39,979 nt of DNA from Ignavibacteriales bacterium (GTDB lineage: Bacteria > Bacteroidota > Ignavibacteria > UBA10030 > UBA8401), in NCBI GenBank assembly GCA_026390635.1, contig JAPLFO010000161.1:1-39979 (forward strand), in the 5' to 3' direction. Both the position numbers and the translations under genes were made by a program. Shown one piece after another: positions 14,800 to 24,600 of this stretch (the first letter of the stretch is position 1; each line of letters begins with the position of its first letter). Below the pieces are notes generated by a model, which ran no database searches, had not been told where the DNA came from, and saw only the letters and a list, made by a program, of their open reading frames with translations.

Positions 14800-16083
14800 T
14801 CACGGAACAATATATTCCTCATTCGTGAGCAACTTATCACCATTGGTAAAACTGATGAGGATGCGATAATAGTAATAATGAGGATGTGAAACGGTCGTAT
14901 CCACGTATGAGGTGATTGATTGATCCGTAATGGTCGCAATCACCGGGCTCTGCTTCGTCAATTTGGGAATGGTATCCCTCAACACCTTATAGCTTTGGAA
15001 GCCTGCACTTGAGTTCTTCGTCCACTGGAGCACTGCTGCATTGGACGCCATGGCTATTGGATCGAGTTTTATAAGTTGATACGCGTTCAGAATAAAATCT
15101 ACCGGGACCGCACTCTTGAAAGAAGATCGAACACGATACATTCCAGGTTTTTTTCCATATGTATAGGAATTGGCTTTTATCGCCGGCACATTGAGAGTAT
15201 CAAGCCAGCCTCCTGTAATTGTTCCTCCATCGAGGGGGGTAAAATAAACCTGTGCCAGTCCTCGTTGATAGTTTCCGTATTTATCTTTTGAGTAGACAAC
15301 GAGTGCATCGACCGCAGGAGTTTCCACGAAGCCGACCTGATTATTGCCTGAATAGATCAGCATTATTGCCGGAGAGGCCGGCACGACGCTCGCAGTGATA
15401 ATGTTCGGAACCGGCGTTGTATCCGCCAGTGTAATTCTTATCTGGGTGTATGTACCCGCTATAGTGTCCATCGTCCAATAATTTATAGCAACGCCGCTGG
15501 TGTCGGTAAGGACGCTCGGCTTGTCGCAGAAGGACCTTCCTGCTATCACTGTGAAATTCACTGTCGCTTGCGGCGAAGGATTAAGAAATTGATCCCGTAC
15601 AAGTACTTTTATCGGGTATCTTTCTCCGGCGGTAAGGTCCTTGTCAATCTTTCCCACATTAAACGACGCTCCGCTAGCGGCAAGAGCTTTCAATCGAAAG
15701 TCGATCGGAGATCCTTTGATGCCCTGATACACAGCCTGCACCACAAACGAGTCAGCCTTCATCCCATAGCTGTAATAGGCCTTGGCAATTCCATCGTTGC
15801 CGGTAGGCACAATCGACTGCACGAATTTTGCATTTCCGCCAATTGCCACAAATTCGATATAGACGCCCAAAGCCGGCCGGTTGTCCGATGTGAAGACCCT
15901 TACTGCCAGCGGTGAAGATGACGGCATGCCGCAGACTCCCGATTGAAGATTGCCGGAATACAGTTCCATCCGATCCGGCAAAGCAAGGCCTGTGCCATTT
16001 GCCGTGTTTTTGTCCATGCAATGAAACGAAGTGCAAACAACCACGGCAAGTGTCACAAGAACTAATCGGTATCGGGTGTTCAT
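14800..16083 (-). CDS. Lipoprotein with Ig-like (Big_1-type) repeats and a fibronectin-III-like C-terminus
   Basis: 427 residues. The signal sequence ends at FHC (Cys22), so it is probably an envelope lipoprotein. Residues about 35-330 contain three repeats of the bacterial Ig-like group 1 pattern (for example LAVRVFTSDNRPALGVYIEF, IKVLVRDQFLNPSPQATVNF, ALVVYSKDKYGNYQRGLAQV). The last ~90 residues look fibronectin-III-like (AVLQWTKNSSAGFQSYKVLRD ... YYYYRILISF). No catalytic motif is seen; an adhesin-like or receptor-accessory role is inferred from the receptor gene 34 bp downstream. AGGA lies seven bases before the ATG. Confidence 0.8.
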   Translation of the reverse strand: MNTRYRLVLVTLAVVVCTSFHCMDKNTANGTGLALPDRMELYSGNLQSGVCGMPSSSPLAVRVFTSDNRPALGVYIEFVAIGGNAKFVQSIVPTGNDGIAKAYYSYGMKADSFVVQAVYQGIKGSPIDFRLKALAASGASFNVGKIDKDLTAGERYPIKVLVRDQFLNPSPQATVNFTVIAGRSFCDKPSVLTDTSGVAINYWTMDTIAGTYTQIRITLADTTPVPNIITASVVPASPAIMLIYSGNNQVGFVETPAVDALVVYSKDKYGNYQRGLAQVYFTPLDGGTITGGWLDTLNVPAIKANSYTYGKKPGMYRVRSSFKSAVPVDFILNAYQLIKLDPIAMASNAAVLQWTKNSSAGFQSYKVLRDTIPKLTKQSPVIATITDQSITSYVDTTVSHPHYYYYRILISFTNGDKLLTNEEYIVP

Positions 16084-18694: not shown

Positions 18695-21331
18695 TTACTC
18701 CTTCTTGAAACAGAGCACGCCTTCCCGTTCCAGCGTGACCGTGATCGAATCGCCGTCTCCAAATTCACCGGCAAGGATTTTTTCCGACAGACAATTGACG
18801 ATGTGCTTCTGGATCACCCGTTTCAACGGCCGCGCACCCAGCGTCGGGTCATATCCCAGCTGTGCAAGCCATTCCTTTGCATCGTCCGTCACTGTCAGTT
18901 TCATTTCCTTTCTCGCCAGAAGCTGCTGCACATTCTTCAACTGGAGATCCACAACCGCTGCAATGTCCTTTCGGGTCAGAGGCTTGAAGAGAATGATTTC
19001 ATCCACCCTGTTCAGAAATTCCGGACGGATGTTTTGGCGCAATAGATCCAACATATCGCCGCGCAGTTCGCCCACTTTGTCCGCCCACTCCTCGTCGTTC
19101 CGCAGTTCCGCCACTTTTTCCTGGATGAAATGTGATCCGAGATTGGACGTCATGATAATCAATGTGTTTTTGAAGTTCACCGTTCTGCCTTTGGAGTCGG
19201 TCAGGCGGCCGTCATCCAGCAGTTGCAGCAGAACGTTGAAAACCTCCGGATGTGCTTTCTCAATTTCATCCAGCAGTACGACCGAATACTGTTTACGCCG
19301 CACCGCTTCCGTCAGTTGACCCCCTTCCTCATAACCGACATAGCCGGGAGGAGCTCCGATCAGACGGGAGACAGAGAATTTTTCCATGTATTCGGACATA
19401 TCGATCCGCACCAGCGCATTTTCATCGTTGAAAAGAACGTGCGCCAGCGACCGTGCCAATTCTGTCTTGCCGACACCGGTGGTTCCCAGAAAAATGAACG
19501 AGCCGATGGGGCGTTTCTCATCCTGCAGTCCCGACCGGCTGCGGCGGACGGCGTCGCTCACAGCCTTCACCGCTTCTTCCTGATTCACCATCCGGTCGTG
19601 AATCTTCTCTTCCAGATGCAGCAATTTGGCACGTTCGCTTTCCAACATCCGCGTCACGGGAATTCCAGTCCATCGCGAAACGATTTCCGCAATATCCTCG
19701 GCATCCACTTCTTCCTTCAGCATCTTATGATCTTTTTGAATCGCGGATAGTTTTGCCGTTGCCTCTTTTATTTTCTTGTCCAATCCGATCAACACGCCAT
19801 AGCGGAGTTCGGCAACCCTCGCCAGATCGCCTTCGCGTTCTTTGCGGTCTGCCTCGGCTCTTGTGGATTCAATTTCCTCTTTCATCGATCGGATCGATTG
19901 AATGAGCTGCTTTTCATTCTGCCAATGCGTCTTCAGTGCGTCCCGCCCGGACTGCAATTCTGACACATCCTGTTTCAACTGGCTGAGGCGGGATTCGATC
20001 TGTGCCCTATCGGCAGCGTCGGCATAATCCGCGCTGAGTTCACGCTTGATCGCTTCGCGTTCGATTTCCAGCTGCTGGATCTTGCGCTCGGCGGTATCCA
20101 GCTCCTCCGGCATGGAATCAATTTCAATGCGGAGCTTGGAGGCTGCCTCATCCACGAGATCGATCGCCTTGTCCGGCAGAAAACGGTCGGCGATGTAGCG
20201 GTCGCTCAATTGCGCCGCAGCCACGATGGCACCGTCGGTAATGCGGACGCCATGATGCACCTCGTACCGTTCGCTAAGGCCGCGCAGAATCGAAATCGTG
20301 TCTTCCACCGACGGCTCGTTGACAAGCACAGGCTGAAAGCGTCGTTCGAGCGCCGGATCTTTTTCGATATATTTGCGGTATTCATCCAACGTCGTCGCAC
20401 CGATCGCGCGCAGATCGCCGCGCGCCAGCGCCGGCTTCAGCATGTTGGCGGCATCGACTGACCCCTGCGCTGCTCCCGCTCCGACTACCGTATGGAGTTC
20501 GTCGATGAACAGTATAACCTCGCCATTGGAATTTTCGACTTCCTTCAGCACGGCCTTCAGACGTTCTTCGAATTGTCCGCGAAACGTGGCGCCGGCAATC
20601 AGGGCCGCCATGTCCAGTGCAATGATGCGTTTGCTCTTAAGATTCTCCGGCACATCGCCGGTAATGATGCGATGGGCGAGCCCTTCGGCAATTGCCGTCT
20701 TTCCGACTCCCGGCTCTCCGATGAGGACCGGATTGTTTTTTGTGCGCCTCGACAGCACCTGGAGGACGCGTCTGATTTCTTCATCGCGGCCGATCACAGG
20801 ATCGAGTTTTCCTTTGCGTGCGAGTTCGTTCAGATCTCGGCCGAATTTATCAAGAGACTGGAACTTGTCTTCCGGCGTTTGATCGGTGACGCGCTGGGAA
20901 CCCCGCACGTCTTTCATGGCTTTCATGATGGCTTCACGGGTGACGCCCTGATCGAACAGGAGCTTCGCCGCGGCGTTCTGCTTCAATTCCAGAATCGCGA
21001 GAAGGATGTGCTCGGTGCTGACAAAATCATCCTTCAGCAGTTCGATCTCCTTCTGCGCCTGCTCGAGCAGCCGCTGCACCATCGGGGATGCAAACTGCTG
21101 ACCGCCCTGTATTTTGGGGAGCTTTTCGATCAGCTCGAGCATCTTGATTTTCACGTAGTCCACATTCGCGCCGATCTTCTGGAGGATGGGGATGACGATT
21201 CCCTGAGGGTCTTGAATCAGTGCAGCGACCAGATGTTCCGGTTCGATGGCCTGATTGCCGTAGTGGGAAGCAATTTCCTGTGCATTCTGCACCGCTTCCT
21301 GCGCCTTGATCGTAAATTTGTTGAGGTTCAT
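18695..21331 (-). CDS. clpB: ATP-dependent disaggregase ClpB
   Basis: 878 residues, full length. ClpB works with DnaK to pull aggregated proteins apart in the cytoplasm. It has the Clp N-domain ([18 protein letters not shown] ..., 1-145), the first AAA+ module with GEPGVGKT (205-212) and [12 protein letters not shown], and the long coiled-coil middle domain (about 405-530) that binds DnaK and marks it as ClpB rather than ClpA/C. The second AAA+ module has [22 protein letters not shown] and a C-terminal [17 protein letters not shown] lies eight bases before the ATG at 21331; an in-frame GTG at 21337 is less likely. It follows dnaK on the same strand, separated by a terminator and hairpins. Intact. 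Confidence 0.97.
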
Positions 21332-21387
21332 AATCACAATCCTTTAAACTCGTGTGTCTCCCTGTAGCCCGACTCCACAGCCTGTAG

Positions 21388-21585: not shown

Positions 21586-23517
21586 CTATTTATCATCAAC
21601 AACTTCGAAGTCGGCGTTCTCTACCTTTTTGTCATCTTTGCCGCCGGCACTCTGCTGTCCGGTGCTGGAACCCGGTTCGGGACCAGACTGCTGAGGTCCG
21701 GTGCCCGGCTGCTTCGCAGCTTCATACATGTGCGTCGAAGCGTCATTCCAGATGGCGTTCAGCGCTTCCATCTTTGCCTTGATATCCGCTACAACATTTG
21801 CCTTTATTGATTCTTCCAGTGCCGCAGCAGCTGCTTCCAGCTTCGACTTAACATCGGCCGGGATCTTATCTCCCAGCTCTTTCAATTGCTTCTTTGTTGA
21901 GAACACAAGATTGTCGGCATGGTTTTTTGCTTCGATATCTTCCTTGCGCTTGGTATCTTCTGCCGCATGCCGTTGAGCATCAGCCTTCATTTTTTCCACT
22001 TCATCCTTACTGAGACCGGACGACGATGTAATACGGATACTTTGTTCCTTGTTCGTCGCCTTATCCTTTGCCATCACATGCAGCATGCCGTTGGCATCGA
22101 TATCAAACGTCACTTCGACCTGCGGAACACCGCGCGGTGCAGGCGGAATTCCATCCAGATGAAATTTGCCGAGCGTCCGGTTGTCGCTGGCCATCGGACG
22201 TTCCCCTTGCAGGATGTTGATTTCCACCGAGGTCTGGTTGTCCGCCGCGGTGCTGAAGACTTCACTCTTCTTTGTCGGGATAGTTGTATTCGCATCGATC
22301 AATTTGGTCATGACGCTGCCAAGCGTTTCGATACCGAGCGACAGCGGAGTCACATCCAGCAGCAGGACATCCGTTACGTCGCCGGAGAGCACGCCGCCCT
22401 GAATAGCCGCTCCGATTGCAACGACTTCATCCGGATTGACGCCTTTGTGACCTTCTTTGCCAAAAATATCTTTTACCAACTGCATGACGCGCGGCACGCG
22501 TGTCATACCACCGACCATAATGACTTCGTCGATCTGACTCGGCTGCAGGCCCGCATCTTTCAGGGCTTTTTCTACCGGAGGGATACAGCGGCGGACCAAA
22601 TCGTCCACCAGTTGTTCAAATTTTGCGCGCGTGAGGTTCAAATTAAGATGCTTCGGTCCATCCGCCGTTGCCGTAATAAACGGCAAATTGATTTCAGTCT
22701 GGTTCAGCTGAGACAGCTCCATCTTTGCCTTTTCCGCGGCTTCGCGCAAGCGTTGCAGCGCCATCGGATCTTTCAGCAGATCGATTCCTTCAGTCTTCTT
22801 GAATTCCTCAGCGATATATTCCAGCAGACGCTGGTCAAAATTGTCACCTCCGAGATGCGTGTCGCCGTTCGTCGATTTCACTTCGAAGACGCCATCGCCC
22901 AGTTCGAGAACCGAGATATCGAATGTTCCGCCGCCGAGATCAAACACCGCGACCTTCGAGTCTTTGCCTTTCTTGTCGAGACCATACGCCAGCGCAGCTG
23001 CCGTCGGCTCGTTGATGATGCGGCGCACTGTCAATCCGGCAATCTCGCCGGCTTCCTTTGTCGCCTGGCGCTGAGCGTCGTTAAAATACGCGGGGACCGT
23101 GATGACAGCATCCGTCACCTTTTGTCCGAGATAATCCTCGGCAGTCTGCTTCATCTTCTGAAGAATCATCGCAGATACTTCCGGGGGAGAATAGACACGA
23201 TCGTCAATCTGCACACGGGCGGTATTATTGTCACCGGTCACCACTTTGTACGGAACAAGCTTCATTTCCTCATTCACTTCATTCATGAAGCGGCCCATGA
23301 AGCGCTTGATTGAAAAGACGGTATTCTGGGAGTTCGTCACCGCTTGGCGTTTTGCCGGCTGACCGACGAGGCGCTCTCCGTTTTTTGCAAATCCGATAAT
23401 TGAAGGGGTCGTCCGCATACCTTCTGCGTTCGCAATGACTACGGGATCGTTTCCTTCCATCACCGCAACGACCGAATTTGTCGTTCCAAGATCGATTCCA
23501 ATGATTTTTCCAGCCAT
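21586..23517 (-). CDS. dnaK: Molecular chaperone DnaK (Hsp70)
   Basis: 643 residues, full length. The ATPase domain begins with [18 protein letters not shown], with [29 protein letters not shown] and [11 protein letters not shown]. The substrate domain has [13 protein letters not shown] and [19 protein letters not shown], and the C-terminal tail ends in the EEVD-like FEVVDDK. It binds unfolded segments in an ATP-driven cycle with DnaJ/GrpE, which are not in the window. AGGAG precedes the ATG. No CIRCE operator (TTAGCACTC-N9-GAGTGCTAA) is seen upstream; instead a sigma-54-type promoter lies about 60 bp before the start. It is divergent from birA and followed by clpB on the same strand. Confidence 0.98.
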
Positions 23518-23576
23518 TTCCAGCTCCTGTTCTTCAGTTGTTTTTCACATGAGTATCAGTTTTCTGGCAACCATAC

Positions 23577-23593
23577 CGCAATAGCCGTGCCAA
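23577..23593 (-). promoter_or_regulatory. Sigma-54 (-24/-12) promoter for dnaK
   Basis: On the minus strand TTGGCACG-GCTA-TTGC-G matches the RpoN consensus YTGGCACG-N4-TTGCW at every position but the last. GG and GC are separated by exactly ten bases. The predicted transcription start is near 23566, giving a 5' leader of about 49 nt to the dnaK ATG. Confidence 0.7.
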
Positions 23594-23693
23594 CTAGAAA
23601 GCCCAAAAAAGAGCGAAAATCGCATCATCGTCTATGCCATAATGACTCATTAATCGGCAATTTTGGCGCACAAATCATTTGCTGGCAGTTTTC

Positions 23694-23726
23694 TGACATT
23701 TTGTCAAAAGGTGCGTTGGCAAAATG
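23694..23726. promoter_or_regulatory. Palindromes in the dnaK-birA divergent region; possible enhancer-binding-protein site
   Basis: TGACA-TTT-TGTCA (23694-23706) overlaps a second dyad, CATTTTG-N16-CAAAATG (23697-23726). They lie about 130-160 bp upstream of the predicted sigma-54 start of dnaK, where activators of RpoN promoters bind. They could instead serve birA: a loose TTG-N21-TACCTTG promoter-like string follows at 23732-23762. The rest of the 289-bp gap holds nothing recognised. Confidence 0.4.
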
Positions 23727-23806
23727 ATTCCTTGACTTTCCTTCAAACATTTACTTACCTTGTTACTCAATTGTACAACAGTCAACAGCGGTTTGAGATA
23801 AAAGAC

Positions 23807-24537
23807 GTGCAGAAACACAGCTTCGGGGCGAAGGTGTTTCAATTTGAGTCGATCGACTCAACGAATAGCTTTGCAAAAAGTCTCGAAGAGTCTGACGCTC
23901 CGCACGGAACGATTATTATTGCGGAGGAACAGACAGCCGGACATGGACGAATGGGACGGCGATGGCATTCTTCCGCAGGAGAAAACTTACTCTTCACGGT
24001 CATTCTGAGACCGGATGTAGCGGCGGACCGGCTGCTCCTCCTCCCCCTTGCCGCCGCCGTTGGAATCGCCGAGGGAATTGAACAGATGACCGGTGTTTCA
24101 CTTGAGACAAAGTGGCCGAACGACCTTCTCTATGACAGGAAAAAGATTTGCGGGATTCTAATTGAAGGCTCGATAGATTCAACCGGCGCGACAGCCATTG
24201 CACTGGGGGCGGGAATCAACATCAATCAAACTTTTTTCCCTCCTGAGATTGAGGCGTCTGCCGGCTCGCTTTCTCTGATTACCGGACATCAGTGGTCAAA
24301 GCAGGAGTTACTCGACACGATTCTTCTTTGCCTTGAAGAGAAATACAACGACCTGTGTACTTCATTTGCACCTTCAATCCTTGCCGCATGGAAAAAGCGT
24401 ACGACCATGCTCGGAAATGTGCATACGACGCCACAGCCGTCGATCTTGACCACCTGGGCGCACTCATCGTCCGCCGCCCGGACGGAACGCTTCACACCGT
24501 CTATGCCGGCGACGTTTCCGTGCACCCTCTGGAGTGA
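23807..24537 (+). pseudogene. birA: Biotin-[acetyl-CoA carboxylase] ligase, catalytic type without HTH, frameshifted near the C-terminus
   Basis: Biotin protein ligase attaches biotin to the carboxyl carrier protein. The sequence shows FESIDSTNSFAKSL, the biotinyl-AMP loop GHGRMGRRW, KWPNDLLYDRKKICGILIEG and GAGININQ. It has no N-terminal helix-turn-helix, so it is not a repressor. After AAWKKRTTMLG the original frame turns into unrelated sequence ending at 24547. The expected C-terminal domain (DATAVDLDHLGALIVRRPDG ... VYAGDVSVHPLE) is in another frame, ending with TGA at 24537. About 10-15 residues between the two seem absent; the break lies at about 24405-24432. The start is uncertain: GTG at 23807 is preferred, TTG at 23771 is possible. 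coaX follows 63 bp later, a common pairing. Confidence 0.88.
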
Positions 24538-24600
24538 ATCGCGATGAAGAAAACAAAGAAAATACAACGCAGCTCACTTCGTTCTTCGAAGGACAATCAT

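Follow-up and report, generated by a model that had tools for sequence, protein, structure and literature searches.

A predicted sigma-54 promoter and putative enhancer dyad upstream of dnaK in an Ignavibacteriales bacterium, with a candidate activator

We analysed a 40-kb window, comprising the whole stretch G000:C53:1-39979, from the genome of an Ignavibacteriales bacterium (G000; 4.0 Mb in 202 contigs). The window contains dnaK (21586..23517, minus strand), whose 643 aa Hsp70 product matches PF00012 with 892.6 bits and scores above cut-off for the NCBIfam DnaK equivalogs; the relatives of this dnaK are found in Ignavibacteria and Bacteroidota MAGs, which places the organism within or close to the class Ignavibacteria. 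Located 3' of dnaK, and on the same strand, is clpB (18695..21337, minus strand; TIGR03346 ClpB, above cut-off). A sigma-54 promoter of its own was considered for clpB and discarded, as no site occurs in the clpB upstream region of the window. The divergent side of dnaK contains a gene for a type III pantothenate kinase and a birA-type biotin ligase ORF (TIGR00121), listed at 23663..24547 of the plus strand. The true start of birA is probably downstream of the listed TTG, so that the putative dnaK enhancer described below would fall within the divergent intergenic region. No Rfam families were detected in the 40-kb window.

Upstream of dnaK, the minus strand contains a putative sigma-54 -24/-12 element, TTGGCACG-GCTA-TTGC (23578..23593), identified by its consensus match and its conservation. 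The minus strand sequence from 23593 to 23578, TTGGCACGGCTATTGC, matches 11 of 12 consensus positions, the sole mismatch being a G for A/T after TTGC, and has the -24 GG and -12 GC elements at their fixed spacing (TGGCAC-N5-TTGC). The -12 TTGC ends 60 nt upstream of the dnaK ATG at 23517 and, from sigma-54 promoter geometry, transcription is predicted to start approximately 12 nt past the -12 element, at 23566..23568 of the minus strand. Recomputing this geometry, with a start near 23567, returned the leader of around 49 nt that an earlier note on this DNA had proposed. The same note made its proposal of RpoN control depend on the presence of rpoN, and the gene is indeed encoded in G000, on contig C85 (188.7 bits); RpoN was also found in 38 of 41 relatives, including all 34 of those with good-quality genomes.

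A single -24/-12 match proves little, because chance matches are common in the window (8 with at most two mismatches vs 6.8 expected) and G000 as a whole shows no enrichment of the exact consensus, with 5 matches against 10 in the control, an uninformative count. A second exact match to the sigma-54 consensus (TGGCACAGGCCTTGCT; 15997-15982, minus strand) lies inside the ORF at 14800-16083, and is likely due to chance. The lack of enrichment would fit a scenario in which the -24/-12 match and the palindrome upstream of it both arose by chance within a single intergenic region, but this is hardly credible, being refuted by the conservation across the order and by the composite genome search described below. 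Likewise, the frequency of chance matches in the window, together with the basal expression that dnaK usually needs, would be compatible with transcription by a housekeeping sigma factor, the dyad then being an ordinary repressor or activator operator and the -24/-12 likeness incidental. However, we consider this very improbable, because the N4 spacing is kept exactly, controls giving 0-1 matches, because neither a TANNTTTG-type element nor a sigma-70-like promoter on the dnaK strand was found, and because start mapping in a related class has assigned sigma-54 starts to dnaK (PMC9723704). An additional sigma-A promoter serving basal dnaK expression is possible.

The conservation of the element was evaluated in two sets of loci. 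Among 98 deduplicated dnaK loci, searched from -130 to -20 for TGGCACG-N4-TTGCW with at least 10/12 positions, the motif was present in 34, as compared with one on the reverse strand; shuffled sequences gave 0.5 on average, with a maximum of 3. When at least 11/12 positions were required in these 98 loci, the N4 spacer yielded 18 matches and any other spacer two at most; at 10/12, spacers of 0 and 1 gave 11 and 13 matches, respectively. The order-level set comprised 57 loci, which are not all independent because a few genomes were present in both source collections, and was searched for the core TGGCAYR-N4-TTG in upstream regions of up to 1.7 kb. The core occurs before dnaK, or before an hsp20-dnaK operon, in 50 of these 57 loci, and within 180 nt in 35 of them; controls yielded 0-1 matches for every alternative spacer length between 1 and 8, and 0-1 on the reverse strand. 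Two of the seven loci without the core correspond to genomes whose site sits more than 1 kb upstream (L012=L033 and L023=L042).

The position of the element varies with the organization of the operon. Where hsp20 genes are found ahead of dnaK, the -24/-12 lies around 477-626 nt upstream of dnaK, a distance that rises to around 1.1-1.55 kb with two or three hsp20 genes (719 nt in L061), where the element heads the operon. In the MAG of Melioribacter roseus (L104), a cultured member of Ignavibacteria, the site preceding the hsp20-dnaK unit matches 12/12 positions. The site thus moves to the head of the hsp20-dnaK unit, which is the behaviour of a promoter and not of a sequence bound to the dnaK leader. 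The element also precedes dnaK, often accompanied by dyads, in loci recorded as Calditrichaeota, Caldithrix and KSB1 (L092, L101, L069, L102 and L107), and further classes of the phylum have it before dnaK, several of them in all (e.g. L295, L316, L319 and L326). This conservation across loci indicates that the dnaK -24/-12 is real, and we conclude that the predicted dnaK promoter is a sigma-54 -24/-12 element and more than a chance match. The near-perfect RpoN promoter described in the earlier note is therefore borne out, both by its 11/12 match and by a core that relatives throughout the order keep at the start of the transcription unit, be it dnaK or hsp20-dnaK.

The putative enhancer is the dyad TGACA-AAA-TGTCA (TGACAAAATGTCA; 23694..23706, minus strand), which belongs to the class TGMCA-N3-TGKCA. 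It is the only strict dyad in the 40-kb window, for which shuffles gave a mean of 0.1, and its centre is approximately 130 bp upstream of the predicted dnaK start. Two additional TGCCA half-sites were identified on the minus strand, one upstream of the dyad (23717..23721, inside CATTTTGCCA) and one downstream (23683..23687). The TGACA-TTT-TGTCA palindrome and the nested CATTTTG/CAAAATG dyad noticed previously are both present, at the distance then given; CATTTTG occupies 23726-23720 and CAAAATG 23703-23697 of the minus strand, and this nested dyad is accounted for by the upstream TGCCA half-site.

In the regions preceding 99 sigma-54 sites we counted 18 occurrences of TGMCA-N3-TGKCA, with no more than two for any other half-site spacing and 0-1 for a mirror control. 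In the Ignavibacteria-related loci, the dyad is located 58-119 bp from the -24 element, compatible with the activator site at about 80-200 bp that characterizes sigma-54 promoters. Helical phasing between dyad and promoter in these loci gave R=0.60 at 10.5 bp (p=0.0035), with the best period near 10.0 bp (p=0.00025 after scanning), and p values of 0.05 and 0.01 after adding two further Bacteroidota loci, all of these p values being optimistic because related loci were treated as independent. The strict dyad is absent from many conserved promoters. The fixed spacing of the half-sites, their recurrence before other chaperone genes and the roughly helical register that they keep with the -24 element agree with the role of enhancer suggested for the palindrome and, from these comparisons of sequences, we propose that the TGMCA-N3-TGKCA dyad is an activator binding site.

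Across 98 genomes of the order, we searched blindly for a composite pattern consisting of TGNCA-N3-TGNCA, 48-108 nt and TGGCAYR-N4-TTGC. This yielded 11 matches, and none with the reversed pattern. Eight of the matches correspond to dnaK, two to hsp20 operons (one of them hsp20-hsp20-lon) and one to another locus; dnaK was the sole match in G000. The one non-chaperone match (L197, in G067:C199) lies between a bEBP gene and a stand-alone receiver-domain gene, and its dyad, TGGCA-CTG-TGCCA, is of a different orientation class.

In other bacteria, dnaK is also the target of HrcA/CIRCE and of sigma-32, and HrcA is encoded in most genomes of the order, including G000. Unlike in those systems, no CIRCE was found upstream of dnaK in G000, where the best match covers 10 of 18 positions, in agreement with the earlier note, and no convincing CIRCE was found upstream of dnaK in around 100 dnaK loci. 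CIRCE occurs instead on the groES genes of relatives, with near-perfect copies in most of the 30 groES loci from the order. Neither a sigma-54 site nor a dyad was found upstream of groES in any of these 30 loci, even in relatives without HrcA. Three genomes of family f3 (G023, G033 and G038) have no HrcA match, and the groES loci of G023 and G033 contain neither CIRCE nor a sigma-54 site. The occurrence of CIRCE at groES and of the sigma-54 site at dnaK and hsp20 suggests that, in this order, groESL follows HrcA and that dnaK and hsp20 follow sigma-54. In G000 itself we found no strong GroES match, with only a 42.6-bit match on contig C79, which probably reflects an assembly gap; the groESL/dnaK split for G000 is thus read from its relatives.

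G000 encodes 14 bEBPs (PF00158 proteins). The earlier note suggested checking for an adjacent bEBP gene; there is none next to dnaK in G000, where the best candidate lies elsewhere in the genome. A bEBP gene near dnaK in relatives was also sought and discarded, as none occurs in the flanks of their dnaK loci. The candidate activator, L119, is a receiver-less bEBP (contig C116:102760-103893, minus strand; L237:7758-9005) with matches to PF00158 (234 bits) and HTH_8 (45 bits). It is flanked by lptE on one side and, on the other, by a SPOR-domain gene that follows miaB, an arrangement kept in every genome of the order examined. All L119 orthologs have the GSFTGA/GAFTGA loop, L119 contains a Fis-type HTH, and the family shows a nearly invariant recognition helix, IS(E)RTLYRK, and a family-specific linker. 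The L119 family branches as a single clade separate from the remaining bEBPs sampled (support 0.96), and is single-copy in 154 of 158 genomes of the phylum (E<=1e-85). PspF is a receiver-less bEBP working from upstream sites. L119 resembles it in lacking a receiver and in its proposed upstream sites, but its match to the NCBIfam PspF equivalog (275.6 bits) is below the cut-off of 443.6, and it has no psp context.

Two relatives with reduced genomes of 1.7 Mb, G007 and G014, keep rpoN and the dnaK sigma-54 site, with 11/12 and 12/12 positions, respectively. Each contains one strong PF00158 protein, the L119 ortholog, the remaining matches being weak, ClpB-like or below. The strict dyad was not found in G007 or G014, which contain only looser TGTCA/TGACA half-sites; among the exact consensus sites examined in these two genomes, besides that of dnaK in G014, none had a clear promoter position. 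The dnaK frame of G007 (C34:20060-21946) has one in-frame TGA, which could reflect either an error in sequencing or a true lesion.

Of 20 Bacteroidota sampled, six have groESL immediately downstream of the L119 ortholog, and in all six the region ahead of groES contains a TGNCA-N3-TGNCA dyad followed by a TTGGCAT element. Four of these six dyads overlap terminator-like hairpins (L334, L336, L337 and L345), with the hairpin coming from the upstream gene; the overlapping sequences are possibly a shared terminator and operator. Because such hairpins could themselves produce the repeat, and because the half-sites in G007 and G014 are loose, we infer the connection between this bEBP and the dyad indirectly. 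No dyads were found upstream of the bEBP genes of G000, and autoregulation of the miaB-bEBP unit was rejected, as neither dyads nor sigma-54 sites were found for it.

These observations bear on whether the predicted sigma-54 promoter could depend on a dyad bound by a different activator, for instance one among the other 13 PF00158 proteins that G000 encodes, most of which have receiver domains. The number of bEBPs in this genome leaves room for it, and so does the failure to find strict dyads in G007 and G014, where the receiver-less bEBP is alone. Nevertheless, the other bEBPs have no strong counterpart in these two genomes, which keep the dnaK promoter, and the L119 family is near-universal in the phylum and adjoins groESL with dyads in several Bacteroidota; a different activator is thus unlikely. 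We consider that the L119-type bEBP probably binds the TGMCA-N3-TGKCA dyad, and that the receiver-less miaB-lptE bEBP is the most likely activator of dnaK. The predicted promoter, the dyad, their gene specificity and the conservation of this bEBP are all supported by comparison among genomes.

Together, the comparative evidence makes it highly likely that dnaK is transcribed from a sigma-54 promoter opened by an AAA+ bEBP on upstream dyads, with the miaB-lptE bEBP as the leading candidate, in a circuit of the order that would control dnaK and hsp20(-lon) and leave groESL to HrcA/CIRCE. In the proposed mechanism, sigma-54 RNA polymerase would wait as a closed complex at the -24/-12, and the receiver-less AAA+ activator, on dyads some 60-120 bp upstream of the -24, would open the complex via looping. 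Since it lacks a receiver domain, the activator would probably be controlled by a partner or by its own abundance. Its activity would be set by protein-folding stress, and a reasonable guess is that this may occur through chaperone titration.

RpoN control of dnaK was regarded as unusual in the earlier note, a view that needs tempering for Bacteroidota in light of start-site mapping in Flavobacterium psychrophilum. In this member of the same phylum, sigma-54 (SM4) starts were mapped for dnaK, groESL, grpE-dnaJ, lon, htpG and clpB, with -24/-12 motifs upstream of these genes (PMC9723704). The two cases differ in that groESL is sigma-54-dependent there, whereas here the groESL of relatives has CIRCE, and in that the accessible text notes three PF00158 proteins and assigns none of them as activator, nor any enhancer, whereas we propose a dyad and a candidate activator (PMC9723704). 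For Bacteroidota and Planctomycetota, a 2025 survey (PMC12316311) predicted a cluster of chaperones under sigma-54, with sigma-54 promoters for the DnaK, GroEL, GroES, GrpE, DnaJ and IbpA orthologue groups, as here for dnaK; unlike in our case, the enrichment was in Flavobacteriia, Bacteroidia and Cytophagia, and a text search of the survey returned neither Ignavibacteria nor Calditrichota. In Myxococcus xanthus, the NtrC-like activator HsfA, of the HsfA/HsfB pair, directly regulates the heat-shock gene lonD (cited in PMC9109919); HsfA is a phosphorylated response regulator, whereas our candidate is receiver-less and would target dnaK and hsp20. The literature found, from a search covering few subscription journals, names no activator for the Bacteroidota sigma-54 chaperone promoters. 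Although earlier reports may exist in such journals, what is new here is the extension to Ignavibacteria, the split between groESL and dnaK, the proposed operator and a candidate for its activator.

Little is understood of how Bacteroidota control their heat-shock response, and a specific operator together with a near-universal, single-copy activator candidate makes the proposal directly testable in tractable Bacteroidota. More tentatively, and leaning slightly towards doubt, we suggest that Bacteroidota and neighbouring phyla may share an ancestral sigma-54 heat-shock circuit, in which the miaB-lptE bEBP would be a chaperone-titrated master activator of protein-folding genes via TGMCA-N3-TGKCA, with groESL handed to HrcA in Ignavibacteria. 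If true, the phylum would gain a sigma-54 counterpart to the sigma-32 circuit.
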